Source of the DNA: Leisingera sp. ANG-Vp
GTDB lineage: Bacteria; Pseudomonadota; Alphaproteobacteria; Rhodobacterales; Rhodobacteraceae
NCBI RefSeq assembly: GCF_000813725.1
Contig: NZ_JWLD01000009.1
Location: 2,757 to 66,756 of the forward strand
Reading direction: 5' to 3'
Length of the DNA: 64,000 bases
Shown: positions 2,381 through 59,839 of the stretch, one piece after another
Position numbering within the stretch: the first letter of the stretch is position 1
How the letters are laid out: every line of letters begins with the position of its first letter
Made by a program: the position numbers and the translations under genes
Notes under the pieces: generated by a model
Databases searched by the model: none
What the model was told of the DNA's origin: nothing
The model's input: only the letters and a program-made list of their open reading frames with translations

Positions 2381-3660
2381 GCGGCCCAGCCTCCCCCGGT
2401 CTGCACACCACCCCGGATGTGACGGTTCTGGGCGCCGGGATTGTCGGCATCTGCTCGGCCTTGTCTTTGGCCGAGCGGGGGCTGAAAGTCCGGCTCATTG
2501 ACCGGGACGCGCCGGGACAGGCGACCTCTTACGGCAATGCCGGCATCATCTCGCCGTGGTCGGTGGTGCCGCAATCGATGCCGGGCCTGTGGAAGAAAGT
2601 GCCGGGCTGGCTGCTGGATCCGCTTGGTCCGGTGACCGTGAAGCCCGGCTATCTGCCCAAGGTTGCGCCCTGGGGGCTGCGGTTCCTGTCCGAGGGGCGC
2701 GCGGGGCGGATCCAGCAAATCTCCGACGCAATGGATACGCTCAACCGCAACTGCGTGGAGCTGTACCGTCTGCATCTGGCAGGCACTGGCCACGAGGATC
2801 TGGTCCGGGACAGCTATTACGTCCATGCCTTTCGCAATGCAGCGGCTGCGGATCTGAATTCAACGGATTACCGGATGCGCCGGGAGCGCGGTGCGGATCT
2901 GGAGCGGATCGGAGCCACTGAACTGCGCGAATTGGAACCGGCGCTGACACCGGAGTTTCAGGCCGCAATCCTGATCAAGGGCCAGGCGCGGGCATTATCT
3001 CCAGGCCGCATCTGCACAGTCCTGTCGGAGAAGTTCCTTTCCATGGGCGGCGAGATCCTGGCCCAGACCGTGCGGGCCATCCTGCCTGCCGAGCGCGGCG
3101 GCTGGACCTATACCACCGCCGAAGGCCAGGAGTGGACGCCGAAGCTGGTCCTGGCCATGGGTGTCTGGTCCGGAGAGCTGCTGAAACCGCTTGGCATCAG
3201 GATCCCGATGGAATCTGAGCGCGGCTACCATGTGTCGTTCCGCAACCCCGGTGTCGCGCTGAACAACTCGATCATGGATATGGACATGAAATTCGTGGCC
3301 TCCTCGATGGAGGAAGGGCTGCGGGTCGCTGGTACTGCCGAGTTTGCGGGGCTTGATCAGCCGCTCAATCAAAAACGGCTTGATGGCCTGGTGGAGCTGG
3401 CCAAGGCGTTGTTGCCCGGCCTGCAGGCTGACGACATGGACACCTGGTCCGGCCAGCGCCCCAGCCTGCCCGACAGCCTGCCCTGCATTGGCGAGGTCGA
3501 GGGCTTCCCGGACCTGATCGCCGCTTTCGGCCACAGCCATTACGGGCTGATGATGGCGCCGAAAACCGGGCGGCTGGTGGCGGATATCGTCAGCCAGACC
3601 CCGATGAACGAAGACCTCGCGCCGTTCCGCGCGCGGCGGTATGAAAGGATCAAGACATGA
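2377..3660 (+). CDS. FAD-dependent amino-acid oxidoreductase (DadA-like)
   Basis: 427 residues. The N-terminus has a Rossmann FAD motif (VLGAGIVG) followed by a DadA-type segment with SYGNAGIISP, and the C-terminal part has the GHSHYGLMMAP stretch usual in D-amino-acid dehydrogenase-type flavoproteins. The family oxidises the amine of D-amino acids or N-methyl amino acids to imines or keto acids. It overlaps the TRAP permease by four bases and the racemase-like gene by four bases, so the three are probably made together. Substrate is not decided by sequence; oxidation of an imported or racemised amino acid is the simplest reading. Confidence 0.82.
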   Translation: MSGPASPGLHTTPDVTVLGAGIVGICSALSLAERGLKVRLIDRDAPGQATSYGNAGIISPWSVVPQSMPGLWKKVPGWLLDPLGPVTVKPGYLPKVAPWGLRFLSEGRAGRIQQISDAMDTLNRNCVELYRLHLAGTGHEDLVRDSYYVHAFRNAAAADLNSTDYRMRRERGADLERIGATELRELEPALTPEFQAAILIKGQARALSPGRICTVLSEKFLSMGGEILAQTVRAILPAERGGWTYTTAEGQEWTPKLVLAMGVWSGELLKPLGIRIPMESERGYHVSFRNPGVALNNSIMDMDMKFVASSMEEGLRVAGTAEFAGLDQPLNQKRLDGLVELAKALLPGLQADDMDTWSGQRPSLPDSLPCIGEVEGFPDLIAAFGHSHYGLMMAPKTGRLVADIVSQTPMNEDLAPFRARRYERIKT

Positions 3661-4385
3661 CCATCCACCCCGGCGGGCAGAACATCTGCGGCGTCTCTAT
3701 CGGCGTCCTTGCGTTGGAAAGCTATTTCCCCAAACCGCCCGGCCATATCAAGAACCCCTCCAGCCTGGGGTTCACCACGCTTTATGAGATGCTGGACGGG
3801 ATCACGGTGCCAAAACTGCTGGCCAACCCGACCGGTGAAATGAAGGATCGGCTGATCGATGCCGCCAAGCGGCTGGAGGCCAAGGGCGTGCGGGCGATCA
3901 CCGGCTCCTGCGGGTTCCTGGCGATCTTCCAGAAGGAAATCGCGGCGGCGGTGAATGTGCCGGTGTTTGTCTCCTCGCTGATCCAGGTGCCGCTGGCGCA
4001 TCAGATGACCGGGCGCACCGTGGGGGTGATCACCGCGTCCTCCGGCAGTCTGACCGAGGCGCATCTGAAGGGCGTCGGCGCCGAGCACACGCCGATTGCG
4101 GTGCAGGGGCTGGATGATGCCGAGGAGTTTTCCACCGTGATCCTGCGCAATGAGCGCACCGCGATGGATTTGGCCAAGGTCGAGGCCGAACTGCTGGCCG
4201 CCGCCAAAGGCATGATCGCCCGCAACCCGGAGATCGGCCCGATTGTGCTGGAATGCACCGACCTGCCGCCCTATGCGCATGCGCTGCAGGCGGAGCTGAA
4301 CCGGCCGGTGTTTGATATCATCACTTTGACTGAGATGGTGCATCGGGCTGCATTGCGCACTCCCTTCTCAGGTTTCATTACCTGA
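3657..4385 (+). CDS. Aspartate/glutamate racemase-superfamily protein
   Basis: 242 residues with the two-cysteine layout of the Asp/Glu/hydantoin racemase superfamily: Cys85 in GSCGF and Cys200 in LECTDLP, each after a hydrophobic strand. Members racemise or isomerise acidic amino acids, hydantoins or maleate without a cofactor. Its ATG overlaps the oxidoreductase stop. Together with a transporter and a DadA-like oxidase this suggests interconversion of stereoisomers of an imported compound before oxidation. The exact reaction cannot be read from the sequence. Confidence 0.75.
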   Translation: MTIHPGGQNICGVSIGVLALESYFPKPPGHIKNPSSLGFTTLYEMLDGITVPKLLANPTGEMKDRLIDAAKRLEAKGVRAITGSCGFLAIFQKEIAAAVNVPVFVSSLIQVPLAHQMTGRTVGVITASSGSLTEAHLKGVGAEHTPIAVQGLDDAEEFSTVILRNERTAMDLAKVEAELLAAAKGMIARNPEIGPIVLECTDLPPYAHALQAELNRPVFDIITLTEMVHRAALRTPFSGFIT

Positions 4386-4388
4386 GAT

Positions 4389-4451
4389 CGGGCAAGCTCC
4401 CTGCCCGTCGCGCTAGCGGCAGGCATGCGTCCGCCCGCCCCACGGCGGGCG
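4389..4451 (+). terminator. Two GC-rich hairpins after racemase-like gene
   Basis: Directly after the stop lies a 6-bp stem (CGGGCA 4389-4394 with TGCCCG 4402-4407), then a perfect 8-bp stem (CGCCCGCC 4432-4439 with GGCGGGCG 4444-4451, 4-base loop). Neither has a clear T-run, so termination is likely but weakly supported. The rest of the 253-base gap to the next gene shows nothing else clear. Confidence 0.4.
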
Positions 4452-4638
4452 CGTTCCGCTCCCGCCCAGGGGTACGCTCACCGTGAAAAGCTACCCTGCT
4501 CCACAGGGGAAACTGGCTTTAACCGACCCTTCTCCCACAGAGATTTCCGGCTCTCAGCCCCCAAATCTTTTGCATGTGGAGCGAAGCCCTGGCCCTTAAT
4601 CTGGCGCGGAAACGCACATTCCGCCTGATAGGACCATC

Positions 4639-5892
4639 ATGAGCCAGATCACCGACACCCTCCTCGAGCAAATCCGCGGCCGCTTTGCCCAGGTTGACAG
4701 CTGCCCGCAGCAGGGCAGCCGCATCTTCTTTGAAAACGCCGGCGGCGCGCTGACGCTGAAATCGGTGGTTGAGACTTCAGCGCAATACGCTGCCATCGCC
4801 GACAACCAGGGCCGCGACAACCCGGGCAGCCACGAACTGGTGCGGGTGATCAACAAGGCCAAGGACGACATGCGCGTGTTCATGAATGCGCCGGGCGGCC
4901 AGTTCTTTGCCGGCGAAAGCGGCACCGAGCTGTTGTTCCGCCTGATCATGAACGCTTGCCTCGGCAGGGGCGAAGGCGGCACCGTGCTGGGCTCGACGCT
5001 GGAGCATCCGGCCACCCGTTCGGCCTGCGCCCGCTGGGCCGGGGTAGCGCGGCAAAAACATGTTCTGATCGAGCATGACAACGCCAGCGGCACCCTCACC
5101 GCCGATGCCTATGCCAAGGCGGTCACGCCGGACACCGTGGTGGCGACCATCGTCCATACCTCGCCTGTGACCGGCATGGGTGTCGACCTGGCGGCTTGCG
5201 CTGCCGCCATCCGCGAGGTGGCGCCGGACTGCCTGATTATCGTCGACGGCATCCAGCACGCCGCCCACGGGCGCATTGACCTGGAGGCCTATGACGTCGA
5301 CGGCTATGTGATCTCGCCCTACAAGATGTTCTCGCGCCACGGCTATGGCTTGGCCTGGATCTCTGACCGGATGACCCATGTGCCGCATAACGCGCTGATC
5401 GACGGGCCGGAGGACAACTGGGAAATGGGCACCCGCGACACCGGAAGCTATGCCACGCTTTCGGATGTGGCCGAATACCTGGAGTGGCTCGGCGGCGAAG
5501 TCAGCGATGCCACCGGCCGGCGCGCGAAATTCGTGGCCGCGGGCGAGGCAATCCACGCGCATGAGAAGGCCCTAACCGACGCGATGATCCATGGCACCGG
5601 CAACCTGCCCGGGCTGGCTGAGATGGAAGGCGTCACCATCCTGGGCGGTGCAGACAACCCCGCGCGCGAGGGGCTGGTGTCCCTGACTGTTGAGGGCGTG
5701 CCGTCGGTGGATGTGGTGAAGCGGCTGAACGAACAGGGCATCCGCACGCATCTGCGCAAGGCAGATCATTACTCAGGCAACATTCTGACGCCTCTGGACA
5801 TGGACAGCTGCGTGCGGGTCTCCATGTGCCATTACAACAGCATAGGCGAAGTGGCGAAGTTCCTCGGCGTGATGAAAGAGATCACCGGCTGA
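4639..5892 (+). CDS. Class V aminotransferase-fold PLP enzyme (cysteine-desulfurase-like)
   Basis: 417 residues of the fold-type I, class V aminotransferase family. The PLP lysine is Lys229 in ISPYKMFS, preceded by the cofactor-binding Asp203 and His207 (VDGIQHAAH); the N-terminal part carries GGQFFAGESGTELLF. The family includes cysteine desulfurases, selenocysteine lyases and isopenicillin-N epimerase-like proteins; no desulfurase cysteine loop was identified, so a lyase, epimerase or aminotransferase role is possible. It stands alone 253 bases after the racemase-like gene, in the same direction, and may belong to the same amino-acid pathway. Confidence 0.8.
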   Translation: MSQITDTLLEQIRGRFAQVDSCPQQGSRIFFENAGGALTLKSVVETSAQYAAIADNQGRDNPGSHELVRVINKAKDDMRVFMNAPGGQFFAGESGTELLFRLIMNACLGRGEGGTVLGSTLEHPATRSACARWAGVARQKHVLIEHDNASGTLTADAYAKAVTPDTVVATIVHTSPVTGMGVDLAACAAAIREVAPDCLIIVDGIQHAAHGRIDLEAYDVDGYVISPYKMFSRHGYGLAWISDRMTHVPHNALIDGPEDNWEMGTRDTGSYATLSDVAEYLEWLGGEVSDATGRRAKFVAAGEAIHAHEKALTDAMIHGTGNLPGLAEMEGVTILGGADNPAREGLVSLTVEGVPSVDVVKRLNEQGIRTHLRKADHYSGNILTPLDMDSCVRVSMCHYNSIGEVAKFLGVMKEITG

Positions 5893-6158
5893 CACCCCTC
5901 GTCTTGGCCGCCGCACTCTGCTGAGAGCTGTGCCCAAGCCAATGAGCGCTGAGCGCTGCCTGTGCCTTGGAAGCTTGCAAAGAGGCGCAGGCGCTTGAAA
6001 TCGCCACTGGTTTCAAGCCCTGTGTGAACCACAACCGGTCCGGTAGAGCCATCTGTGTCAGGTCTTCAGCGAATTTGACCGCATCTGGGCAGGGCCTGGC
6101 GACGTCAATGAACCAGAGGCAATCATTTCTTCCCAGCCAGCCGCATGAAATCGAAGCT

Positions 6159-6193
6159 GCCCGCCGCACTTTCTGTTTTGGAATGCGGCGGGC
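6159..6193. terminator. Hairpin between convergent genes
   Basis: A perfect 10-bp stem (GCCCGCCGCA 6159-6168 with TGCGGCGGGC 6184-6193) with a 15-base loop lies between the PLP enzyme gene and the BCCT gene, which converge here. It could end transcription from both sides, though no strong T-run follows. The remainder of the 319-base gap (5893-6211) holds no supported gene. Confidence 0.5.
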
Positions 6194-6211
6194 GGGGTTA
6201 AGCTGTCTGCT

Positions 6212-7783
6212 CTACTTGGCTGGCAGTTCCTCTTTCAAGGCCTTGTACAGGCTGATCATCATCAGAAGAATGACGATTGAGAACGGCAAAGCGGCAGCGA
6301 TCGATGCAGTCTGCAACGCAACCAATCCCCCGGCGACCAGCAGCACGCTGGCGACAACGCCTTCGGTGACGCCCCAGAAGATCCGCACCAGCCGTGGCGG
6401 ATGCTGGCTGCCCATGGCCAGCATGGTGCAGATCACCAGGGTGCCGGAGTCCGATGAGGTGATGAAGTAGGAGGCAATCAGAAAGGTGACGATGGCGGCA
6501 AAGGCGGTGCCCCAAAGGCCCACATCCATGCCCTCAAGCGTCGCATAAAGCGCCAGGGTCGGGCTTTCGTTGACCGCTTCGATGATGCCGCCCGCGCCCT
6601 GCAGTTCGATGCTGACGGCATTGCCGCCGAACATTGCCAGCAGGAACATGGTGACCAGCGGCGGCACGATCAGCAGCGCCACTACAAACTCGCGCAGAGT
6701 TCGGCCCTTGGAGACGCGGGCGATGAACAGCCCCACAAAAGGCGACCAGGCGATCCACCAGCCCCAGTAAAAGACGGTCCACCAGCCCTGCCACTGCCGG
6801 CCCTGCTCTTCATCGACCCACAGGCCCATAGGCACGAAGTTCTGCACGTAGTTGCCGACCAGATTGACGAATTGACCCAGCAGGTAGACGGTCGGGCCGG
6901 CAAACAAAAAGAAGGCCAGAATGGCAAAGGTCAGCCACATGTTCAGCTCGCTGATGATGCGGATGCCCTTCGACACGCCCGAGACCGCGGACAGGGTGGC
7001 AATACCAGTTACGATGGCGATCAGGATGATCTGGTTGGTTGTCGAATTGGCAATGCCGGTCAGCAGGCTCAGGCCGGTGTTCATCTGCTGGACGCCCAGC
7101 CCCAGGGTGGTGGCAACGCCGAAGATGGTGCCAAAGATCGCCAAGAGGTCGGCTGCATGGCCCCAGAAGCCGTAGATGCGGTCTCCGATCAGCGGGTACA
7201 GAGTGGAGCGCATCGAAAGCGGCAGACCTTTACGGTAAGCGAAATAGGCCAGCGACAAAGCCACGATCACATAGACCGCCCAGCCGTGCACCCCCCAGTG
7301 GAAGGCGGTGATCAGCATGGCGGTGCTGGCAGCCAGGGCTGAGTTCGCCTCGGTTCCGGCCATCTCGATAAACGGGTTGCCCTGCAGGTGGTACATCGGC
7401 TCGGCGATGCTCCAGAACAGCACGCCATTGCCCATGCCGGCGCTGAACAGCATGGCAAACCACGAGAAGTTGCCGAACTCCGGCCGGTCGCTGTCCTTGC
7501 CCAGCCGGATATGGCCATAGCGGCTGAAGGCCAGCCAGATGCTGAACAGCAGAAAGATGCTGATCATCAGGATGTAGTACCAGCTGAGCGTGCTGGTGAT
7601 CCACGACTTGACCCCGTCGAACACGCCCGAAGCAAATTCGACATTGGCGACGGTGAACACAACAAAGGCGATCACCATGAGCTTCGAGGCGATGCTCATC
7701 CGTGCATGGACGCCTTTCAGCAGGCCGGTACTGGCGACGGCGTTGTAAGGGTAGCGGCCGTCAAAGCCCTGTTCGAGTGACAT
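6212..7783 (-). CDS. BCCT-family transporter
   Basis: 523-residue inner-membrane carrier of the betaine/choline/carnitine transporter family, about twelve helices. Family marks are visible: the glycine stretch SAGMGNGVLFW in TM3, FHWGVHGWAVY, and the GWWIAWSPFVG segment followed by ARVSKGR. BCCT proteins import quaternary amines or related zwitterions with a sodium or proton gradient. The ATG at 7783 follows AGGGAGAA. It is the last gene of a minus-strand run after creatinase and a GlxA-type regulator, so creatine, a zwitterionic guanidino compound, or glycine betaine are sensible substrates. That is inference from neighbours. Confidence 0.88.
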   Translation of the reverse strand: MSLEQGFDGRYPYNAVASTGLLKGVHARMSIASKLMVIAFVVFTVANVEFASGVFDGVKSWITSTLSWYYILMISIFLLFSIWLAFSRYGHIRLGKDSDRPEFGNFSWFAMLFSAGMGNGVLFWSIAEPMYHLQGNPFIEMAGTEANSALAASTAMLITAFHWGVHGWAVYVIVALSLAYFAYRKGLPLSMRSTLYPLIGDRIYGFWGHAADLLAIFGTIFGVATTLGLGVQQMNTGLSLLTGIANSTTNQIILIAIVTGIATLSAVSGVSKGIRIISELNMWLTFAILAFFLFAGPTVYLLGQFVNLVGNYVQNFVPMGLWVDEEQGRQWQGWWTVFYWGWWIAWSPFVGLFIARVSKGRTLREFVVALLIVPPLVTMFLLAMFGGNAVSIELQGAGGIIEAVNESPTLALYATLEGMDVGLWGTAFAAIVTFLIASYFITSSDSGTLVICTMLAMGSQHPPRLVRIFWGVTEGVVASVLLVAGGLVALQTASIAAALPFSIVILLMMISLYKALKEELPAK

Positions 7784-49111: not shown

Positions 49112-49636
49112 TCACACGGTGCAGCCATCGCCGCCGCACCGGCCAGAGGAACCGGGCTGCCGGCCTGCGGCAGCAGCAGCAGCTTTGCCGGCAAGCAGGC
49201 TGCCAATCTCCGCACCCACCTGCAGCTTCGAGACCTGGCCAAAATGATGTGCCGCAATCCGGCCCGACTGATCCAGCAGAACCAAGCTGGGCGTCCCATG
49301 CATCCCGTATGCAGCCATAGTTTCCGGCAGCGGCCCTGCCCCCTGTTTGTCGACCGCCACAGGAAACGTAATGCGGTATTCATGCAAAAAGGCCTTCAGC
49401 GATACCGGGGTCATGGCCTCGTGGTGTTCAAAGACAGTGTGCAGCCCGATCACTGCCACCTGATCGCCGGGAAAATGCCGATGCACCTCCTGTGCCAGGG
49501 GAATGCCATGGACGACACAGCCGGGGCACAGCATCTGGAAAGCTTCAATCAGGACAACCTTTCCATGGAAATCCGTCAGCTTGGGGTTTCCGTCAGTGTT
49601 GAACCATTCGGATACCTGAAGTTCAGGCGCTTGCAT
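49112..49636 (-). CDS. Redoxin-family thiol protein (CPGC)
   Basis: 174 residues with a thioredoxin-like fold and the pair Cys37/Cys40 in MLCPGCVVHG, then the cis-proline region HGTPSLVLLD near 110. No signal peptide is seen, so it should act in the cytoplasm as a thiol reductase or peroxiredoxin-like protein. The C-terminal tail is alanine-rich with two further cysteines (GRCGGDGC). AGGAGAGACC precedes the ATG. It lies 57 bases after the secreted-protein gene. A decayed copy of its first 73 residues is at 59621-59839. Confidence 0.85.
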   Translation of the reverse strand: MQAPELQVSEWFNTDGNPKLTDFHGKVVLIEAFQMLCPGCVVHGIPLAQEVHRHFPGDQVAVIGLHTVFEHHEAMTPVSLKAFLHEYRITFPVAVDKQGAGPLPETMAAYGMHGTPSLVLLDQSGRIAAHHFGQVSKLQVGAEIGSLLAGKAAAAAAGRQPGSSGRCGGDGCTV

Positions 49637-51782: not shown

Positions 51783-52073
51783 CGCTGATACCGGTGCATT
51801 GCCTGCCGATGCAGCATTTCCGTAAACCGGGCCGCGCCAAGGCGGGACATTGCCGCCGCTCACCAAAAGCGCAGGTCAGGTGATCCCCCGGGCAAGGTTT
51901 GCGCGGTCAGTGGTTTCGAAATTGCTCGTCCAATAAATGCCGGCGGTACGGCAGCCCTTCCCAAAGCCTACGCATCGAAAAATTTGACCGCGCGGATTGA
52001 TCAATCATCTTAACTGTATGTTTGACAGGCGCTCAGCAATGAAGCTGCAGCTCGATTGAGCGAGGTCCGCAAC

Positions 52074-53279
52074 ATGCCTGAACTGGCGCGGAAGACCTAT
52101 TTGCGCGACACCCACCGCCTGCGCGATCCGGCGCAGACGCTGGAACAGGTCAAGCCGCATTTGGCCGGCATGGGCATAACCCGCATTGCCAATCTTACCG
52201 GGCTTGACCGAATCGGCCTTCCCACCGTTATGGTCACCCGGCCGAACTCCCGTTCAGTAGCGGTTGCCTTGGGCAAGGGATTGTCGCTGGAAGCCGCGCA
52301 GGCTTCGGGGGTTATGGAGGCAATCGAGACCTGGCATGCAGAGCGGATCTCGCTGCCGCTTCGCCTGGCAACATTTGCGGACCTGGAGCGGGAAGCACCA
52401 GTTGCAGACGTCATGCGCTTGCCCCGGGTTGCCGGACGCAGCTTTGATCCATTCCGCCCCATGCTCTGGATAGAAGGCAACGATCTTGCCAGCAAAGTTT
52501 CCCGGTGGCTGCCATACGAGATGGTGGATACCGACTACACCGCCCCGCCCAGCAGCGGACAGGGGGCGTTTCCACGCTCCACCAACGGGCTTGCCTCGGG
52601 CAATGACGTTCTGGAGGCCGCTTGTCATGCGGTTTGCGAGTTGATTGAACGGGACGCCACAACGCTGTGGCACTCTGCGTCTTCCGGACGGCGCATTGAT
52701 CCAGCTACGGTTCAAGACCCGCGCTGCAGGCAGGCGCTTGACTGTTTGACTGCGGCCGGGATCGATTATGCGGTCTGGGATACTGCCACGGACATTGGCG
52801 TTGCCTGCTTTCACTGCGTCATCTGCGAAGCAGGCAGCCAGCCCGGCCACATCGGGATTGGTGATGGCTGCCACCCTGATCGTTCCATCGCCTTGCTGCG
52901 GGCTGTGACCGAGGCCGCGCAGACCCGCCTGACTTACATTTCGGGTGCCCGCGATGATCTGGACCCTGACGAGTTCACCACAGAGGCGGTTGCCTCTCGG
53001 GCGCAATATGCACATGGGCTGATCCGAGGGGGTGTGCCGGCGGGAAGCTTTCAGGACTGCCCGGACTTCAGCTCGCCATCATTTGATGAGGACCTCGATT
53101 GGCTGCTGAACCGTCTGAAGTCCGCCGGCATGGATCAGGCGCTGATCGTTGACCTGTCCCGCGATGGCATTGGCATTGCTGTCGTGAGGGCTGTGATACC
53201 AGGCCTTGAGGCGCCGCATGACGATCCCGGTTTTGTCCCGGGCCCGCGCGCGCGGCAAGTTAGGGAGACGGCGGGATGA
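52074..53279 (+). CDS. YcaO-domain ATP-dependent cyclodehydratase/thioamidase
   Basis: 401 residues. Hallmark YcaO ATP-binding blocks are intact: GKGLSLEAAQASGVMEAIE (Glu82, Glu85, Glu90), NGLASGN (171-177) with CELIERDA (Glu189, Glu192, Arg193), and TEAAQTRLTYISGARDD (from 279). No PxPxP tail, so not an azoline-type enzyme. YcaO proteins activate backbone amides with ATP; with TfuA they make thioamides. The ATG at 52074 has GAGG eight bases upstream. Its stop overlaps the tfuA start. Confidence 0.92.
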   Translation: MPELARKTYLRDTHRLRDPAQTLEQVKPHLAGMGITRIANLTGLDRIGLPTVMVTRPNSRSVAVALGKGLSLEAAQASGVMEAIETWHAERISLPLRLATFADLEREAPVADVMRLPRVAGRSFDPFRPMLWIEGNDLASKVSRWLPYEMVDTDYTAPPSSGQGAFPRSTNGLASGNDVLEAACHAVCELIERDATTLWHSASSGRRIDPATVQDPRCRQALDCLTAAGIDYAVWDTATDIGVACFHCVICEAGSQPGHIGIGDGCHPDRSIALLRAVTEAAQTRLTYISGARDDLDPDEFTTEAVASRAQYAHGLIRGGVPAGSFQDCPDFSSPSFDEDLDWLLNRLKSAGMDQALIVDLSRDGIGIAVVRAVIPGLEAPHDDPGFVPGPRARQVRETAG

Positions 53280-54622
53280 CTGCAGTTGTCTTTGCAGGTC
53301 CCACCATTGCGGCGGACGAAGTCAAGGCAGTGATTGAAGCAAAGGTCCTGCCTCCAGCCGGTCAGGGGGACATCTACAGGGCAGCCCGGAAAAAACCGTC
53401 TGCCATCGGTTTGATTGATGGCTATTTCGAAGGCGTCCCATCGGTCTGGCACAAGGAAATTCTCTGGGCGATGGAGCGGGGCATTGCGGTCTTTGGCAGT
53501 GCCAGCATGGGGGCTTTGCGGGCGGCTGAGCTGTCCGTTTTCGGCATGATCGGAGTTGGCCGTATCTTTGAAAGCTACGAATCCGGTCGTCTGAGCGATG
53601 ATGATGAAGTTGCAGTTCTTCACAGCCCGGAAGAGTTGGGATTCAAGCCGCTAAGCGAACCTATGGTTTCGATCCGTGCGACTGCCGAGCATGCTGTTTG
53701 CGAGGGGCTGCTGGCACCTAATGAGGCTGCGCAACTGCTAAACGCGGCAAAGGCGTTTTATTACAAGGATAGGAACTGGGACAGAATTCTGGCGGAGTTC
53801 AAAGGATCCCATTGGCATGGCGCATTTTCGGACTGGCTGCCATCGGGGCACATTGATGCCAAGCGCCAGGATGCTTGTGAGATGCTGGTACAGATGTCGG
53901 CTTTTCTGACTGGCGATGCACGCGATGAGGAGCCGCAGAGGCACCGGGTCGAGCGCACGCTTGCCTGGCAATGTCTGGCAAGCCGCGTCGACGCAGAAAG
54001 AACTGGCACAAACGAAGATGCACGCGGCCTGCTTGACGAATTGCGCCTCAATCCGGCGCGCTATGCCGGATTCCGCACAAAGGCCGCTCTTCGCGTGCTG
54101 GCGCTGCAAGAAGCAGAAGGCACAGCGAAGCGTATCGAACGCACTGCGTTGCTGGATCAAATGGCCCGCCACCGAGCAGCGCGGGGGCTAGCTCAAAGCC
54201 GTGACTTGCAACATTGGCTGAGAGAAAACGGATTAGACGGAGCTGGATACGAAGAGTTGCTCCGGGACACTCTTAGCATGGAGGAAGTCGTAAGCGCCCT
54301 TGGGGATCAGCTGGAACCGCAAATACTGGCCGAACTCCGGTATGCAGGCGCTTATGCGGGGCTGCAGGAGCGCGCGGTGGAAAAAGAAAAGAGACTGCAA
54401 AAGCTGGACGCGGCCTCAGGCAATTTGCCGGGTGCGGACAAACTTCAGGTTCTCATCTGGTATTTTGAAACCTTGCTGGGCCGTGATGTGCCTTCGAACC
54501 TTGAGTCCCATGCCAAAACCCTTGGTCTTGCGGGCGTTGAAGAATTCTATGCGCTGATCACCCGCGAATTCATGTATCATCAAAGCTGCATAAACCAGCC
54601 AGCGGCGGGAAAAATGGAATAG
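53276..54622 (+). CDS. TfuA-like protein, partner of YcaO
   Basis: 448 residues. The N-terminal 180 or so are the TfuA core: FAGPTI start, FGSASMGALRAAEL near 80, and GVGRIFESYESG with DDDEVAVLH. TfuA is thought to bring sulfide or assist YcaO in peptide thioamidation (shown for methanogen McrA and some RiPPs). The remaining 260 residues are a long helical extension I do not recognise. ATGA overlap with ycaO makes a fixed pair. Confidence 0.9.
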   Translation: MTAVVFAGPTIAADEVKAVIEAKVLPPAGQGDIYRAARKKPSAIGLIDGYFEGVPSVWHKEILWAMERGIAVFGSASMGALRAAELSVFGMIGVGRIFESYESGRLSDDDEVAVLHSPEELGFKPLSEPMVSIRATAEHAVCEGLLAPNEAAQLLNAAKAFYYKDRNWDRILAEFKGSHWHGAFSDWLPSGHIDAKRQDACEMLVQMSAFLTGDARDEEPQRHRVERTLAWQCLASRVDAERTGTNEDARGLLDELRLNPARYAGFRTKAALRVLALQEAEGTAKRIERTALLDQMARHRAARGLAQSRDLQHWLRENGLDGAGYEELLRDTLSMEEVVSALGDQLEPQILAELRYAGAYAGLQERAVEKEKRLQKLDAASGNLPGADKLQVLIWYFETLLGRDVPSNLESHAKTLGLAGVEEFYALITREFMYHQSCINQPAAGKME

Positions 54623-54661
54623 GCAGGAGATACAGGGGGCTCAGCGGTTCTGGAGGGACGC

Positions 54662-55960
54662 ATGCACAACCCTGATGACTTTGACGAAGAGGCACCGGGC
54701 ACCCGGTTCCTTCTGTTCCCGCAGGCGCCGTTCCGCAAGCCGGATGCCGTCCCCGAACTGGTTGAAATCTCCGCACCGCGGGGCACCATCGGCCCTGGCC
54801 CTTCGGGGCCGCGCATGTATACCGTCAATCCTGTCAGCAAGCGTATCCCCTACGGCGCCATCATTGACCGCTCAGAGGGCCCAAGCATGTATCTGCCGCC
54901 CTGGGACGGTTATATCCAGCCGCCGCCCGAACCGGATCAGTTCGGCAACTTCAACCATATCCTGCCGTCTGATCCTGCATTTGAGGCGGCGCATCTGTTT
55001 GGTGCGGCGCATTTCACCATGGATGTCTGGGAAGGGTATTTCGACCACCCGATACCCTGGCACTTTGCGCGGGATTTCGAGCGGCTTGAACTGTCGCTTT
55101 TGCCCAGTCTGGACAATGCCCATATCGGCTGGGGTTTTCTGGAAACCGGAGGCACCAGCGAACATGGAGGCGAATACCGCGCTTACAGCCTGAATTTTGA
55201 TGTTGTTGCCCATGAGATCGGCCACGCCATCATCTACAGCGTGGTAGGGATGCCGCCCTCGGAGGATGTGCCCGGCGAGTATTACGGTTTCCATGAGTCT
55301 GCCGCGGATATGGTCGCGCTGCTTGCATCCCTGCATTTCGGATCTGTTATAGAAGAGCTTCTGGAGAACACCCGGGGCAACCTGTACACGTTCAATCAGC
55401 TCAGCCGGTTTGCAGAGCTTTCCGGAAACGCACAGATCCGGATGGCGGCCAATACCCGGACCCTGCCGGAATTCGCGCATGGCTGGACCAGCGAGCACGC
55501 TTTGTCCGAACCGCTGACCGGCGCCATGTTCGACATCTTTGTCGACATTTTCCATGAAAGGCTGCTGGTTCACGGACTGATCACCCGGGAGATGGAGGAG
55601 CTCTCGGACCGGCTGGAAGAAACACCTTTCTACAGCGACGTCATGCAGGCGCTTTTTGATACCCGCTATGCGCTTGACCCTGAAGGTTTTCGCGTGTCCC
55701 TGCTGGAGGCTCGCGATTTTCTCGGCTCTTATCTGGCCGATGCCTGGAGCCTTCTGGAAGCGGAGAATCTCACGTATTCAGCTGTCGAACAGGCTCTGCT
55801 GGCTGTTGACGCGGAGATTACCGGCGGCGCCTTCCAAATGATCATCAAAGAGAATTTCAGAATGCGCGGCATCGGCCTGGTGCGGGCCGGTCCCCGCTTG
55901 CAATCCGCCGATGATACAAGCCACGCGGTTTCGGTCCGCACACGAGTGCCCGAATGGTAG
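54662..55960 (+). CDS. Gluzincin-type zinc metallopeptidase
   Basis: 432 residues without an obvious signal peptide. HEIGH at 184-188 gives the zinc histidines and catalytic glutamate; HESAAD at 211-216 supplies the third ligand (Glu212), as in M4/M36-like thermolysin relatives. The N-terminal 100 residues are proline-rich and may be inhibitory or substrate-binding. GGAGGGACGC precedes the ATG, 39 bases after tfuA, same strand. A processing protease for whatever the YcaO-TfuA pair modifies is possible but unproved. Confidence 0.8.
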   Translation: MHNPDDFDEEAPGTRFLLFPQAPFRKPDAVPELVEISAPRGTIGPGPSGPRMYTVNPVSKRIPYGAIIDRSEGPSMYLPPWDGYIQPPPEPDQFGNFNHILPSDPAFEAAHLFGAAHFTMDVWEGYFDHPIPWHFARDFERLELSLLPSLDNAHIGWGFLETGGTSEHGGEYRAYSLNFDVVAHEIGHAIIYSVVGMPPSEDVPGEYYGFHESAADMVALLASLHFGSVIEELLENTRGNLYTFNQLSRFAELSGNAQIRMAANTRTLPEFAHGWTSEHALSEPLTGAMFDIFVDIFHERLLVHGLITREMEELSDRLEETPFYSDVMQALFDTRYALDPEGFRVSLLEARDFLGSYLADAWSLLEAENLTYSAVEQALLAVDAEITGGAFQMIIKENFRMRGIGLVRAGPRLQSADDTSHAVSVRTRVPEW

Positions 55961-56107
55961 AGATTCAATAACCTTTAAATTTTAACCTTTTTGTGGCATT
56001 TTATCTGCAGGGGGACTTTCTCAAACAATCGGGCTCGCACGTGTTTCGGCTCATGCATTGGGAGAAAATCTTCTGGTGTTGTTTCCATAGCCACGGGAGT
56101 GAGTAAG

Positions 56108-56650
56108 GTGGCCGAGACGTTACTCAGTTTTTCAGAAGTGTTACTATTTGGACGTTTGGTGAAGGACCTGAAGATCAAGGACAGGAGCCGGGGAGAGCGT
56201 TGCGGCGACAACGGGTTTCTTGCAAAACAACTGCAGGAAGGAACGGATCCAAGGCTCGCCCGCATCTACGGGTTTTCCTATGAAGGCACCTATCATCAGC
56301 TGCCTGAGCCAGTCATCCTGCTGGTGCACGGCAAAGGGGAAGACGCCTTTGCTGACAGCGGCGAATTCGCCCGCTCACCATTGAGCCCTTCGAAATCAGG
56401 TGTTGCTGCGGCTGATTTCCAGATGGCCGACAAGGTCAAGTTCTGGGAATACGACAAGGCTGACTACACAATACGCATGGACCTGATGACCGGCATGCTG
56501 GAGCAGGTGTTGCTGGACGTGTATTTCGGCTCAGCAGGCCCAGCCGTCAGCGGAGCCAAGGTGAGTGGCGCCAAAGTGAGCGGTGCAAAGGTGAGCGGTG
56601 CAAAAGTCAGCGGCGCCAAGGTGAGCGGCGCAAAGGTCTCAGGCGACTGA
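56108..56650 (+). CDS. Unknown protein ending in six VSGAK repeats
   Basis: 180 residues from a GTG at 56108 with GGGAG eight bases upstream; earlier starts lack a ribosome-binding site. The first 145 or so residues are globular-looking (FLAKQLQEG, RLARIYGFSYEG, KFWEYDKADYTIR) and of no family I know. The C-terminus is six exact VSGAK pentapeptides plus VSGD, resembling a short pentapeptide-repeat beta-helix coil or a linker. It follows the metallopeptidase by 147 bases on the same strand. Start is uncertain. Confidence 0.65.
   Translation: MAETLLSFSEVLLFGRLVKDLKIKDRSRGERCGDNGFLAKQLQEGTDPRLARIYGFSYEGTYHQLPEPVILLVHGKGEDAFADSGEFARSPLSPSKSGVAAADFQMADKVKFWEYDKADYTIRMDLMTGMLEQVLLDVYFGSAGPAVSGAKVSGAKVSGAKVSGAKVSGAKVSGAKVSGD
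56546..56647 (+). repeat. 15-bp in-frame tandem repeat (VSGAK)
   Basis: Six 15-base units at 56546-56635 plus a partial unit encode VSGAK repeated. Units differ at third codon positions (gtc/gtg, ggc/ggt/gga, gcc/gca, aag/aaa) while the peptide is constant, so the protein sequence appears to be under selection. Not a CRISPR array: there are no spacers. Confidence 0.9.
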
Positions 56651-56674: not shown

Positions 56675-58444
56675 TCAGAAACCGGCTTTCCTCAGCCCTT
56701 CAACAAAGTGCTGCGTATCTTCTTCCAGGCGATCAGGCTGCACTTTGGCCCAGCGTTCCAGCGAGAAATTCGGGTGAGCCTCCTGGTGTTTCCGGGTCAT
56801 TTCCTGTGCCTGATCCATTCGGCCTAGCTGGGCATAGCTGGCCGCAAGCATCCGCTGGCCTTCAGTTGGGTTGTTCATCTTCGTCAGCGTATCGATTACC
56901 GCCTGATATTCCTTGAGATTGTAGTAGGCGCCGCCAAGGTGCCACAGGTACTGGTCCGGGAAATAAGGGTTCAGGCGCATTGCTTGCTTCAGGTGCTCGA
57001 TCGCTGCTTCGTTGTCGCCGGAATGCGCCATCGCATCCGCAAAATCTGAGCGCAGATCCGCATCATTGGGATTGAGAGCGAGCGCGCGCTTGTAAGCACC
57101 GATAGAGGCGTCGTGCTCCTTGCGGTAGAGATGCACAAAACCAAGTTCGCCAAAACCCCGCGCATCCGTTGGATCCAGGTCAACAGCCCGCTGCGCAAAG
57201 CCCAATGCGGTATCAAGCGCGTGGTCCGCATCCTTGGCCCAGGAGTAGCGCCAATCGATGTTCATCGTACGGGATATTGCCGCTGAAGCCCGGGCGTAGT
57301 CCTGATCGCAGGCAAGCGCCCGTTCATAGAGCACATGGGCTTCATGATTGTCCTGGCGGGTATACCTGAAGATAAACTGCTGGCCACGGAGCACGTACCC
57401 GTAGGCGGCAAGGTCTGCGGGTGCCCTTTGCGCCATCCGTTTGCGTTCCTGTGTTTCAATCAGGACCGCAGTTGCCGCAACAATGGCATCCGTGACTTCG
57501 TCCTGTATTTCAAAAATGTCGTCAATGTTGCGGTCATAGCGTTCCCCCCAGATGGTTCTGCCGCTGTCCGCGTCAATCAGCTCAACCGCCACCCGCACCC
57601 GCGAAGCTGCCCGCCGGACACTGCCGCGCGCAATATAGCGTACTCCCAATTCCCGCGCGGCGTCCTGGGGCGGCATCGCTTGCGATTTGAAGAAAAAGGC
57701 GGAATTCCGGGCAATCACAAACAGGTTCTTGAACTTGGAAAGGTTCAGGATGATGTCGTCGGTCAGACCTTCGGCAAACCAGCTGTCGGATGGATCCCCG
57801 CCCTGGCTGGCAAAGGGCAGAATGGCGACTGAAGGTATTTCAGGCCGTTCCGGTTCAGATTTCTGAAAGTCCGGCCGGCGGCTTGGCGCCATGGTCACGC
57901 CCGCAACCTCGCTCCTGACGCAATACGTCTGCACTGGATCGGCAATGTTCTTGAGCGTGCAAGGGCCCAGAAACTCATAGCCGAACCGCAGCCGGTTGCG
58001 GATCTGCTCATAGACAGCCGCACTGACAAACACGCGGCCGGGTTCGGCAATCTCCTGCAGACGGGCGGCAATGTTGACATTGTCGCCATGAATGCCGCGG
58101 TCGTCTTCCAAAATTTCGCCAAGATGCACCCCGGCGCGGAACCGGATTTTCTGGTTATGGGGGCGGGCCTGATTGCTCAACTCTGCAATACGATGCAGTT
58201 CGACGCCGAATTGAACGGCATCGGTCGCCGTCTCAAACAAAGCTAAAACGCCATCTCCGCGCACAGCAATCACTTGGCCGTCATACGTTCCACAGGCTGC
58301 TTCGAGCTGCATAATCAACGACTTCAGCGTGCTGTAGGTGTCGACCTCATTGGCCCCCATCAGCCGGGCATAACCAACAACATCGGCAAAAAGAACTGCG
58401 CCGAGTCTTCGCCGGAACGAAGGGTTTTTGTTCTGATCGCCCAT
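56675..58444 (-). CDS. Class III adenylate/guanylate cyclase with TPR repeats
   Basis: 589 residues: cyclase domain at about 10-180 with metal aspartates in LFADVVGYARLM and VRGDGVLALFE and the NVNIAARLQ helix; a TolB/CadC-like linker domain at about 205-320 (VAILPFASQ, IWGERYDRNIDDIFEIQDEV); then TPR repeats to about 570. Such proteins make cAMP in the cytoplasm. GAGGGA lies before the ATG at 58444. Its 3' end converges with the VSGAK gene, 24 bases apart. Confidence 0.9.
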   Translation of the reverse strand: MGDQNKNPSFRRRLGAVLFADVVGYARLMGANEVDTYSTLKSLIMQLEAACGTYDGQVIAVRGDGVLALFETATDAVQFGVELHRIAELSNQARPHNQKIRFRAGVHLGEILEDDRGIHGDNVNIAARLQEIAEPGRVFVSAAVYEQIRNRLRFGYEFLGPCTLKNIADPVQTYCVRSEVAGVTMAPSRRPDFQKSEPERPEIPSVAILPFASQGGDPSDSWFAEGLTDDIILNLSKFKNLFVIARNSAFFFKSQAMPPQDAARELGVRYIARGSVRRAASRVRVAVELIDADSGRTIWGERYDRNIDDIFEIQDEVTDAIVAATAVLIETQERKRMAQRAPADLAAYGYVLRGQQFIFRYTRQDNHEAHVLYERALACDQDYARASAAISRTMNIDWRYSWAKDADHALDTALGFAQRAVDLDPTDARGFGELGFVHLYRKEHDASIGAYKRALALNPNDADLRSDFADAMAHSGDNEAAIEHLKQAMRLNPYFPDQYLWHLGGAYYNLKEYQAVIDTLTKMNNPTEGQRMLAASYAQLGRMDQAQEMTRKHQEAHPNFSLERWAKVQPDRLEEDTQHFVEGLRKAGF

Positions 58445-58508
58445 TGGATGTCCCTCGTGCGTCAATCCCTCTTGATCTGCTCAGTGCCCTGCTGCCTCGT
58501 CGTTCCGC

Positions 58509-59150
58509 TTAACCGGCTGTATAAGTGGATGGGCACGGCGGCCAAACCCAGCCGGGGGTCTCTTCAGAGCCAAAACAGACCGCCAAATCTGCCTTGAGCT
58601 TCCGGGCTAGCCCCTCGCGGTGCGCATCCCATTCCTCCCGCAGTATCCCAACCGCTACCATGTCAAAGCACTGGCCTTCCGCAAACCAGGCCCGGCGCAT
58701 CCTGCCTTCGGTTTCAAAGCCAAGCTGTTCGGTCAAATTCCGGGTGCGCGTGTTGTCTTCGCGGTAGTATGATGTGACCCGGTTCAACCCCAGTTGGCGG
58801 AATGCAAAATCCAGCACCAAAGCCATGGAGCGGATGCCTATTCCTTGCCGGCGTCTCTCCTTCCCAATGAACAGGGCGATCACTGCATCCCGGTTTACCG
58901 GCGAAATGGCTTCAAGTCCGGCGATCCCGGCAAGCTCGCCGCCGTCAGCCGCAATCGCAAACCAGCATTGACGCATCCCGCCGGCTGCATCCACCGCGGC
59001 TTCCCAGGCCTGCTCGGTGGCGGCAGAGTTTAGAGGAGCGCGCGCAGAACGGTCAAAACATGCAAGGTCCGCTACATCCTGAAACCAGCAGGATGCCACC
59101 GCAATATCCGCCTTTTCGAGGGGCCTGAGCGTGAATAGACAGCCGGACAT
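58509..59150 (-). CDS. GNAT-family N-acetyltransferase (RimJ/RimL type)
   Basis: 213 residues. The acetyl-CoA-binding loop is RRRQGIG near 115, followed by NLTEQLGFETEGRMRRAWF typical of RimJ/RimL-like proteins that acetylate amino groups of proteins or small molecules. The ATG at 59150 follows GGGAGATCAGG. A C-terminal tail of about 40 residues is not conserved-looking. It starts the transcript that leads into the cyclase gene 64 bases downstream. Confidence 0.82.
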   Translation of the reverse strand: MSGCLFTLRPLEKADIAVASCWFQDVADLACFDRSARAPLNSAATEQAWEAAVDAAGGMRQCWFAIAADGGELAGIAGLEAISPVNRDAVIALFIGKERRRQGIGIRSMALVLDFAFRQLGLNRVTSYYREDNTRTRNLTEQLGFETEGRMRRAWFAEGQCFDMVAVGILREEWDAHREGLARKLKADLAVCFGSEETPGWVWPPCPSTYTAG

Positions 59151-59494
59151 GGGCCTGATCTCCCTTTCCTCCCAGGATGTTTCTTTTCTTCCGTGCAATC
59201 CCAGTATGAAAAACCCTGCAAAGCAATTGTAACATGGTTTGGTCTTTCGAGGGACAGCGTATGATTGCAAAGTTGGAAACAAGGTTTTCTCCGCGACCAA
59301 TCATGCTTCCTTGAGGCAGATTTTCCTGACCGGGAAGCCAACGCAGGTCTTGGCTGCCTTACAGAGAACGTGTTTGGAAACCGGTCCGGAGGCTGGGCTG
59401 GTAGGGTTCGTCCGCGGCTGACAAGGTCGGAACAAGACCGCTCTGCAAACGCGCTCGGCTGGACCAACTTCATTCTGTGCACCCATCCGCAGGT

Positions 59495-59601: not shown

Positions 59602-59620
59602 GCTTTTGAGGAGAATGCAA

Positions 59621-59839
59621 ATGCAAGCGCCTGAACTGCAGGTATCCGAATGGTTCAATATGCGAGAGAAACTGAAACTTTCAGGCTTGAAGGGGAAAGC
59701 TATTCTGATCGAAGCTTTCCAGATGCTGTGCCTGAGGTGTGTTCTTCATGGAATCCCCCTGGCCCAGGCTGTCCAAAGAACTTTCCCTGCTGGTAAGGTC
59801 TCTGTGATCGGGCTGCACTTCTTCTTTGAGCACCAAGAG
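59621..59839 (+). pseudogene. Truncated copy of redoxin gene (first 73 codons)
   Basis: Begins MQAPELQVSEWFN after GAGGAG. By eye 49 of 73 residues equal the redoxin at 49112-49636; both cysteines remain but the active site reads CLRC instead of CPGC. Similarity stops after FEHQE, and the frame then runs on without meaning through the antisense of soxC. A thioredoxin fold cut here would lack its cis-proline half, so it should be inactive. Confidence 0.8.

Follow-up and report, generated by a model that had tools for sequence, protein, structure and literature searches.

A conserved YcaO-TfuA cassette with an adjacent metallopeptidase and a repeat-tailed candidate substrate in roseobacters and rhizobia

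The DNA analyzed here (the window) is a 64,000-nucleotide stretch of contig NZ_JWLD01000009.1 of Leisingera sp. ANG-Vp. Between positions 52074 and 56650 it carries four genes, referred to jointly as the cassette, that encode a YcaO protein, a TfuA protein, a metallopeptidase and a protein ending in an array of VSGAK repeats. On the evidence of sequence, this cassette is real and conserved and would be a variant of YcaO-TfuA modification that brings its own candidate substrate and peptidase. Its features are the following.

52074-53279, + strand: YcaO protein (Pfam YcaO), ATG start, with an in-frame TTG at 52056
53276-54622, + strand: TfuA protein, with a core (residues 1-207) and an extension (residues 208-448; 53897-54619)
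54662-55960, + strand: gluzincin-like metallopeptidase, with HEIGH at 55211-55225 and HESAAD at 55292-55309
56108-56650, + strand: repeat-tailed protein, the proposed substrate or precursor, 180 aa from a GTG start, within a longer open reading frame (ORF) from 55991
56108-56545, + strand: N-terminal domain (N-domain) of the repeat-tailed protein, about 146 aa, represented by a 24-row alignment (A5)
56546-56647, + strand: probably disordered repeat tail, in which six VSGAK units precede a terminal VSGD

A first-pass annotation of this DNA had reported the four genes on one strand, with the peptidase starting 39 bases past the tfuA stop and bearing HEIGH and HESAAD motifs, and these observations stand, the motifs falling at residues 184-188 and 211-216. 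It had also described a 260-residue extension on TfuA and a VSGAK tail. The extension exists, but its length is about 240 residues, since the McrA-type TfuA model NF033432 spans residues 3-207 (205.2 bits); it is restricted to some relatives, with both long and short forms of TfuA in existence. The tail is likewise there, with six exact units and the final VSGD, on a protein that probably starts at GTG 56108 and not at 55991, because a GGGAG precedes this codon and the resulting MAETLLSFSEVLLFGR fits the start of most relatives. The ycaO and tfuA genes overlap by 4 bases, and by Pfam match the identities of both products are certain (YcaO domain, 272.9 bits, E 5.3e-81; TfuA domain PF07812, 160.6 bits, E 1.7e-47, residues 48-166). 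The closest solved chains by sequence are the methanogen YcaO MJ1094 (6pe3, E 8.5e-34) and the TfuA domain protein 6xp8 (E 6.7e-35). YcaO has the MEAIE and NGLASGN blocks in common with MJ1094, and the ELIERDA and LRAVTEAAQ blocks match; we take these four to be the ATP-binding blocks.

The peptidase combines HExxH with a downstream ExxxD, the motif pattern of gluzincins, and no row of the corresponding 19-row alignment (A4) departs from H184, E185, H188, E212 or D216. Its predicted structure, with a predicted local distance difference test score (pLDDT) of 78.5 and a predicted template modelling score (pTM) of 0.83, has an M4/M36-type fold, matching M36 (7qfy, E 6.1e-7) and thermolysin (4tln, E 1.0e-5) in Foldseek with TM-scores of 0.48-0.64. 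The likeness to M4/M36 gluzincins such as thermolysin and fungalysin thus extends to both motifs and fold, whereas identity is only 12-14% across Foldseek ranks 1-13, the protein lies below both Pfam cut-offs (for Peptidase M36, PF02128, 12.4 vs 23.3 bits), and inspection of its N-terminus by eye revealed no signal peptide. A phage origin was considered and rejected, the peptidase having two weak matches only (E 1e-3 and 5e-7) among 50,697 phage records.

The repeat-tailed protein has no Pfam or NCBIfam match up to E 0.1. In its structural model (mean pLDDT 64.5, pTM 0.56, whole protein), ten-residue blocks of the N-domain reach pLDDT 71-88 over residues 11-80 and 111-140 and 46-59 over residues 81-110, and the tail (residues 143-180) stays below 50. 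Searches with the N-domain gave no Foldseek match below E 2.3, a best VIA Z of 2.7 and a best E of 0.55 in a PDB profile search; this lack of a fold match does not make the N-domain a new fold. The repeat tail alone was tried as a search handle and rejected: a tail-based profile matched 33 of 295 genomes, covering the N-domain in eight (G000, G001, G007, G054, G055, G146, G609, G626), and the remaining rows matched only or mainly the tail end, many of them in long proteins. The tail-free alignment A5 was used instead for N-domain searches; it misses G358, whose repeat protein is found only by a looser hidden Markov model (HMM; E 1.4e-5), and G219, whose contig stops short of the gene. In locus L038 (11447-12298) and in some other repeat proteins from Ruegeria and Leisingera, about 100 additional residues (VNGETLAPGDKILVMAQ...NGLYQVG) are inserted past residue 30, a segment that the window protein does not have; in L038, this segment weakly matches phage head-decoration (E 0.0018) and virion (E 0.0015) families.

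In order to assess conservation, genome contigs were scanned with a profile of the peptidase alignment, and the best 80 of 170 peptidase relatives were taken as the nearest-relative set. The tfuA gene lies directly upstream of the peptidase in all 80 loci and ycaO accompanies it in 79, the single miss falling at a contig end; in L091, YcaO and TfuA match one 943-aa ORF. The repeat protein follows the peptidase in 75 loci by HMM, always on the same strand, and tblastn adds one more, where a contig ends (76/80); yet another locus stops 96 bases past the peptidase. Because its peptidase is truncated by the end of the contig, locus L130 (G219) escaped the ORF-based scan, but tblastn recovers it. 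L027 (same record as L092) was left out of these counts, as were L189 and L190, whose contigs are as long as those of L080 and L087. The first-pass annotation would have been contradicted by peptidase and repeat genes that do not accompany ycaO-tfuA in relatives, or by a YcaO clade with another fixed substrate; both genes are conserved beside the pair, and neither YcaO (TIGR03266, 216.5 vs 365 bits) nor TfuA (NF033432, 205.2 vs 235.2 bits) reaches the threshold of its McrA-type equivalog model.

The same association was examined at two phylogenetic levels, in a family sample of 149 genomes and a class sample of 385 genomes that includes the window's own. Within the family, the peptidase was matched in 7 genomes (one of them, G082, weakly), the repeat protein in 6 (one of them, G102, by the tail only) and TfuA in 9. 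Across the class there are 26 TfuA loci in 21 genomes, about a third of which (8/26, the window's included) belong to the cassette. All 8 strong peptidase matches (E < 1e-100) have TfuA adjacent; six weak ones (E 9e-5 to 3e-18), all in genomes without TfuA, were treated as other zincins and excluded from this count. The N-domain lies beside the peptidase in 6 of 6 genomes matched by its model, and in this sample the N-domain and strong peptidase matches are found only with the cassette. The window's genome also has a second ycaO-tfuA pair (G000:C64; L002, L035), beside a TPR-like protein and with no peptidase among the ORFs listed around it.

The tail repeats are selected at the protein level. 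Pairwise comparison of units within 74 arrays of 5-10 units each yielded 4924 synonymous and 539 nonsynonymous codon differences, a synonymous share of 90% against 28% for random single changes; since synonymous differences so far exceed the random expectation, the repeats are maintained as protein and are not a DNA accident. The split repeat protein of L074, which extends over two ORFs, was excluded from these statistics. Nor are the VSGAK repeats a product of chance, because the units vary in DNA and not in protein and the gene order recurs across several bacterial families. The units themselves differ among lineages and comprise VSGAK, VSGAR, VSGSR and GMNAR/GMSAR, with VSGAM in L093, AVMASR in L133, SDLVGR in L135, SRSGGxx in the Rhizobium p42c type and GMNV in L134, an array of four-residue period without a basic residue. 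A second type of tail, present in Rhizobium and some roseobacters, is short and unrepeated (e.g. YAITASLAHRDGRLNRE or YSAHMQMAHRGGKLS), and the product of the L131 repeat gene has no repeat and an Arg-rich end. The final residue is D in 68 of 75 repeat proteins and E in the other 7. Most tail types have K, R or H directly after a small residue; with GMNV and VSGAM as exceptions, this is a tendency and not a rule. Thermolysin-like enzymes prefer a hydrophobic P1' residue, and V, I, L or M is present in every main unit type seen.

These unit types bear on two other explanations of the locus. The tail could be a structural element of pentapeptide-repeat type (A-x-L/V-S-G), the enzymes acting elsewhere. 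The AKVSG register resembles the pentapeptide-repeat pattern A(D/N)LXX, and PF00805 is weakly matched in three relatives (13.4-16.1 bits); all three scores fall short of the 20.2-bit cut-off, however, and the family search with the window protein returned nothing up to E 0.1. Repeat periods of 4, 6 and 7 in relatives, and arrays of 5-10 units that would give a short helix at most, in a tail whose pLDDT is below 50, render this explanation very unlikely. Alternatively, YcaO could form azolines or introduce another backbone change in place of thioamides, given that the Ser of VSGAK could cyclise and that a SagD-type model scores 133.2 bits. This score is below its cut-off of 219.25 bits, the GMNAR, GMNV and VAGAR units contain no Ser, among solved YcaO chains MJ1094 is nearest in sequence, and TfuA precedes the peptidase in every one of the 80 loci, so that azoline formation appears highly improbable.

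The reading that we prefer is that the cassette thioamidates the VSGAK protein, with the N-domain as recognition part and the disordered tail as multi-copy target, and that the peptidase then cleaves the product; we hold its chances of being correct to be evenly balanced. What the analysis establishes is which genes are present and in what conserved order, that the repeats are under selection as protein, and that the active-site motifs are in place; the identity of the substrate, the thioamide and its site, the cleavage and the regulation we infer as follows. The N-domain of about 146 residues would replace the short leader of other systems as the recognition part, and the disordered C-terminal array would be the multi-copy target. 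TfuA would release sulfide from a ThiS-type carrier; the window's genome has two ThiS-family (PF02597) matches, neither on the window's contig. YcaO, with ATP, would swap a backbone oxygen for sulfur in every unit, which for the window protein means at most about six exchanges (about +96 Da). The modified residue would be Gly, by analogy with McrA, or else the small residue ahead of K/R, by analogy with thiovarsolin. The gluzincin would subsequently release the tail or cleave between its units, and the neighbouring nucleotide cyclase described below would probably link production to cyclic-nucleotide signalling.

Known systems offer partial parallels to this scheme. By gene layout and repeats, the locus follows the multi-core arrangement of ribosomally synthesized and post-translationally modified peptides (RiPPs), in which a gene-encoded candidate precursor with a repeated core adjoins ycaO-tfuA. 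The closest precedent for YcaO-TfuA action on a repeated core is thiovarsolin, a set of N-acetylated APR tripeptides from Streptomyces varsoviensis that derive from a repeated precursor and bear a thioamide between Pro and Arg (PMC6511847). Both loci pair YcaO-TfuA with a repeated core in the precursor, and most units here contain K or R, as the APR core contains R; the cassette differs in its adjacent gluzincin (the thiovarsolin cluster is reported to encode no specific protease), its N-domain of about 146 residues, its other units and its cyclase neighbour (PMC6511847). Glycine thioamidation of McrA in methanogens is likewise comparable, in that its YcaO and TfuA are the closest solved relatives by sequence and a whole protein is the substrate; against this stand the missed equivalog cut-offs and the candidate substrate and peptidase of the window cassette itself. 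Thioamidation of uL16 by EcYcaO also has YcaO act on a whole protein, yet without TfuA and with a TPR domain on YcaO (PMC13063428), whereas here a candidate substrate gene is adjacent.

As for the target of the enzyme pair, the first-pass annotation had left three options, namely a distant target, the VSGAK protein or a novel protein. The conserved adjacency and the natural dissections of the cassette described below favor the VSGAK protein, and a Rhizobium lineage that keeps the tail without a nearby ycaO-tfuA speaks against a tail that serves YcaO alone; the interpretation given in that annotation is partly supported. A distant target, or McrA, was set aside because the conserved neighbour offers a better explanation of the enzymes, although no search was aimed at McrA.

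A number of observations weigh against the preferred reading. The model of the repeat protein is of low confidence. Neither rule for the thioamide site is general, as GMNV (L134) and VSGAM (L093) have no basic residue and AVMASR has no Gly. The proportion of 79/80 overstates the constancy of ycaO among distant relatives, the 80 loci being the best of 170 by similarity, and many loci are closely related, 104 peptidases collapsing to 31 rows at 78% identity, albeit from several families. Loci L068, L070 and L073, from two Leisingera and one Rhodobacteraceae metagenome-assembled genome, have ycaO, tfuA and peptidase without repeat protein or cyclase on the stretch examined. No exporter has a constant position; the nearest thing to one, an ABC-ATPase family in loose linkage, occurs in 35 of 91 mapped loci at varying distances. 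Lastly, among 14 plasmid loci examined out of 153 plasmid records with peptidase matches, 6 consist of cyclase, peptidase and repeat protein and lack ycaO-tfuA over the surrounding 6-8 kb. These six (L142, L143, L146, L151-L153) form one Rhizobium p42c-type lineage with conserved SRSGGxx repeats; they weaken the claim that the tail exists solely for YcaO, and the repeat tail may serve more than YcaO.

The p42c-type loci are also what favors a rival explanation, in which peptidase and repeat protein form the core, the tail is a substrate or tether of the peptidase, and ycaO-tfuA is an add-on that modifies something else, e.g. the N-domain or the peptidase. In the peptidase tree, L143, the sole p42c-type row, branches among rows that bear ycaO-tfuA (fork support 87/86), and this nesting, of modest support, makes a loss of ycaO-tfuA in that lineage likely. 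The p42c peptidase has Q in place of the H before the ExxxD glutamate, with HExxH and ExxxD intact. The other eight plasmid loci (L144, L145, L147, L154-L158) carry ycaO, tfuA and peptidase, and both forms occur in common laboratory strains of Rhizobium, R. johnstonii 3841 pRL11 having the version with ycaO-tfuA and R. etli CFN 42 p42c the version without. The converse dissection is found on a plasmid of Paracoccus denitrificans HAMBI_2443, which keeps ycaO, tfuA and repeat protein with no peptidase within the 16.6 kb examined. This plasmid locus and the retention of ycaO in 79 of the 80 nearest loci leave the add-on explanation rather unlikely. In G380 the cassette consists of tfuA, peptidase and repeat protein, the only detected YcaO being on another contig. 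Since every one of these dissected forms retains the repeat protein, action of both enzymes on it is suggested.

Three plasmid loci show further peculiarities. In L154, the small ORF after the peptidase is not recognized by the N-domain HMM. In L145, a short tfuA ORF is separated from the peptidase by two ORFs that look transposase-like by eye (3520-6569), as though this copy had been interrupted by an insertion element. Another ycaO-tfuA pair of R. etli CFN 42, on p42e (L148), adjoins the gene of a BTAD regulator as well as small ORFs of 47 and 88 aa and is possibly a separate thioamide peptide cluster; whether or not it is, the pair might act in trans on the p42c repeat protein.

If thioamidation of the VSGAK protein does take place, the product might be a poly-thioamide protein, with regularly spaced backbone thioamides on a tail that is kept on its carrier domain or released from it, which cyclic nucleotides would control and which would serve inside the cell, e.g. 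in metal binding, redox binding or signalling, and not as a secreted antibiotic. This reading stays in consideration because there is no fixed exporter, the N-domain is large and the repeat periods are lineage-specific; we regard it as unlikely.

Downstream, the cassette faces two genes on the opposite strand.

56675-58465, - strand: class III nucleotide cyclase with TPRs (Pfam Guanylate_cyc and TPR), convergent neighbour
58509-59300, - strand: GNAT acetyltransferase (Acetyltransf_3, E 9.7e-17), next neighbour

The family of the window's cyclase recurs downstream in 64 of the 70 loci with room for it, and its median distance to the repeat gene is about 60 bases; the count rests on a greedy choice of ORFs, and L039, one of the six misses, also shows a cyclase match. 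The window's genome, 5.15 Mb in size, encodes 15 class III cyclase domains, so that chance adjacency in any one genome is estimated at a few per cent, and common descent explains much of the recurrence. One might nonetheless see the locus as a cyclic-nucleotide defence or stress module, with the cyclase as sensor and the modified protein as effector. Differently built cyclase-domain proteins do stand beside the cassette in separate lineages (AC-TPR, AAA-cyclase), along with a 1115-residue cyclase-like protein in L135 and, in L131, a BTAD protein that weakly matches a cyclase, and a Crp-type family is found near 7 of 91 loci (L029, L030, L031, L077-L079 and L086, with the cyclic nucleotide-binding domain confirmed in L030 only). 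Yet PADLOC returned only weak Pycsar matches for the cyclase (best 4.3e-8) and none for the other five proteins, and the cyclase is mostly convergent (62/64), not co-transcribed. Only a short cyclase piece is matched in L036, the nearest relative (peptidase 94% identical to the window's), and cyclase domains are, as noted, numerous in this genome. A defence role therefore seems extremely improbable.

The GNAT family was rejected as a fixed part of the cassette and is a frequent neighbour, present in 52 of the 91 mapped loci; flanking genes are otherwise variable. Small uncharacterized proteins follow the repeat gene in some lineages (L030, 6650-7687; L131, 9301-9783; L142, 9983-10321; L144, 8675-9085) and are possible extra substrates or partners. 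Farther out in the window there are two copies of a start that is redoxin-like by eye (MQAPELQVSEWFN...), at 49112-49636 (- strand) and 59606-59800 (+ strand), the latter seemingly shortened and continuing into other sequence.

No description of the cassette was found in open PubMed Central papers, supplements aside, and the strings VSGAKVSGAK and VSGARVSGAR were absent from open papers among the matches listed. It may be among the unnamed clusters of a 2021 global survey of TfuA, which counted more than a thousand TfuA clusters in Proteobacteria and in whose available text "repeat" is never used and "peptidase" appears a single time, in reference to a prolyl endopeptidase (PMC8120280). For the loci of a survey of ATP-grasp peptide clusters, adenylate cyclases and an association with YcaO-TfuA are mentioned (PMC8939145). 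The metalloprotease families named in the available text of a review of RiPP leader proteases are M1, M16, M50, M61, M79 and M103, with no mention there of M36, the M4 family or thermolysin (PMC10885120). According to the 2021 survey, the known TfuA-YcaO products all came from Actinobacteria (PMC8120280); the cassette brings together a candidate substrate, a modifying pair and a dedicated peptidase in roseobacters and rhizobia. Its natural variants, without the peptidase or without ycaO-tfuA, constitute ready-made tests of the proposed pathway.

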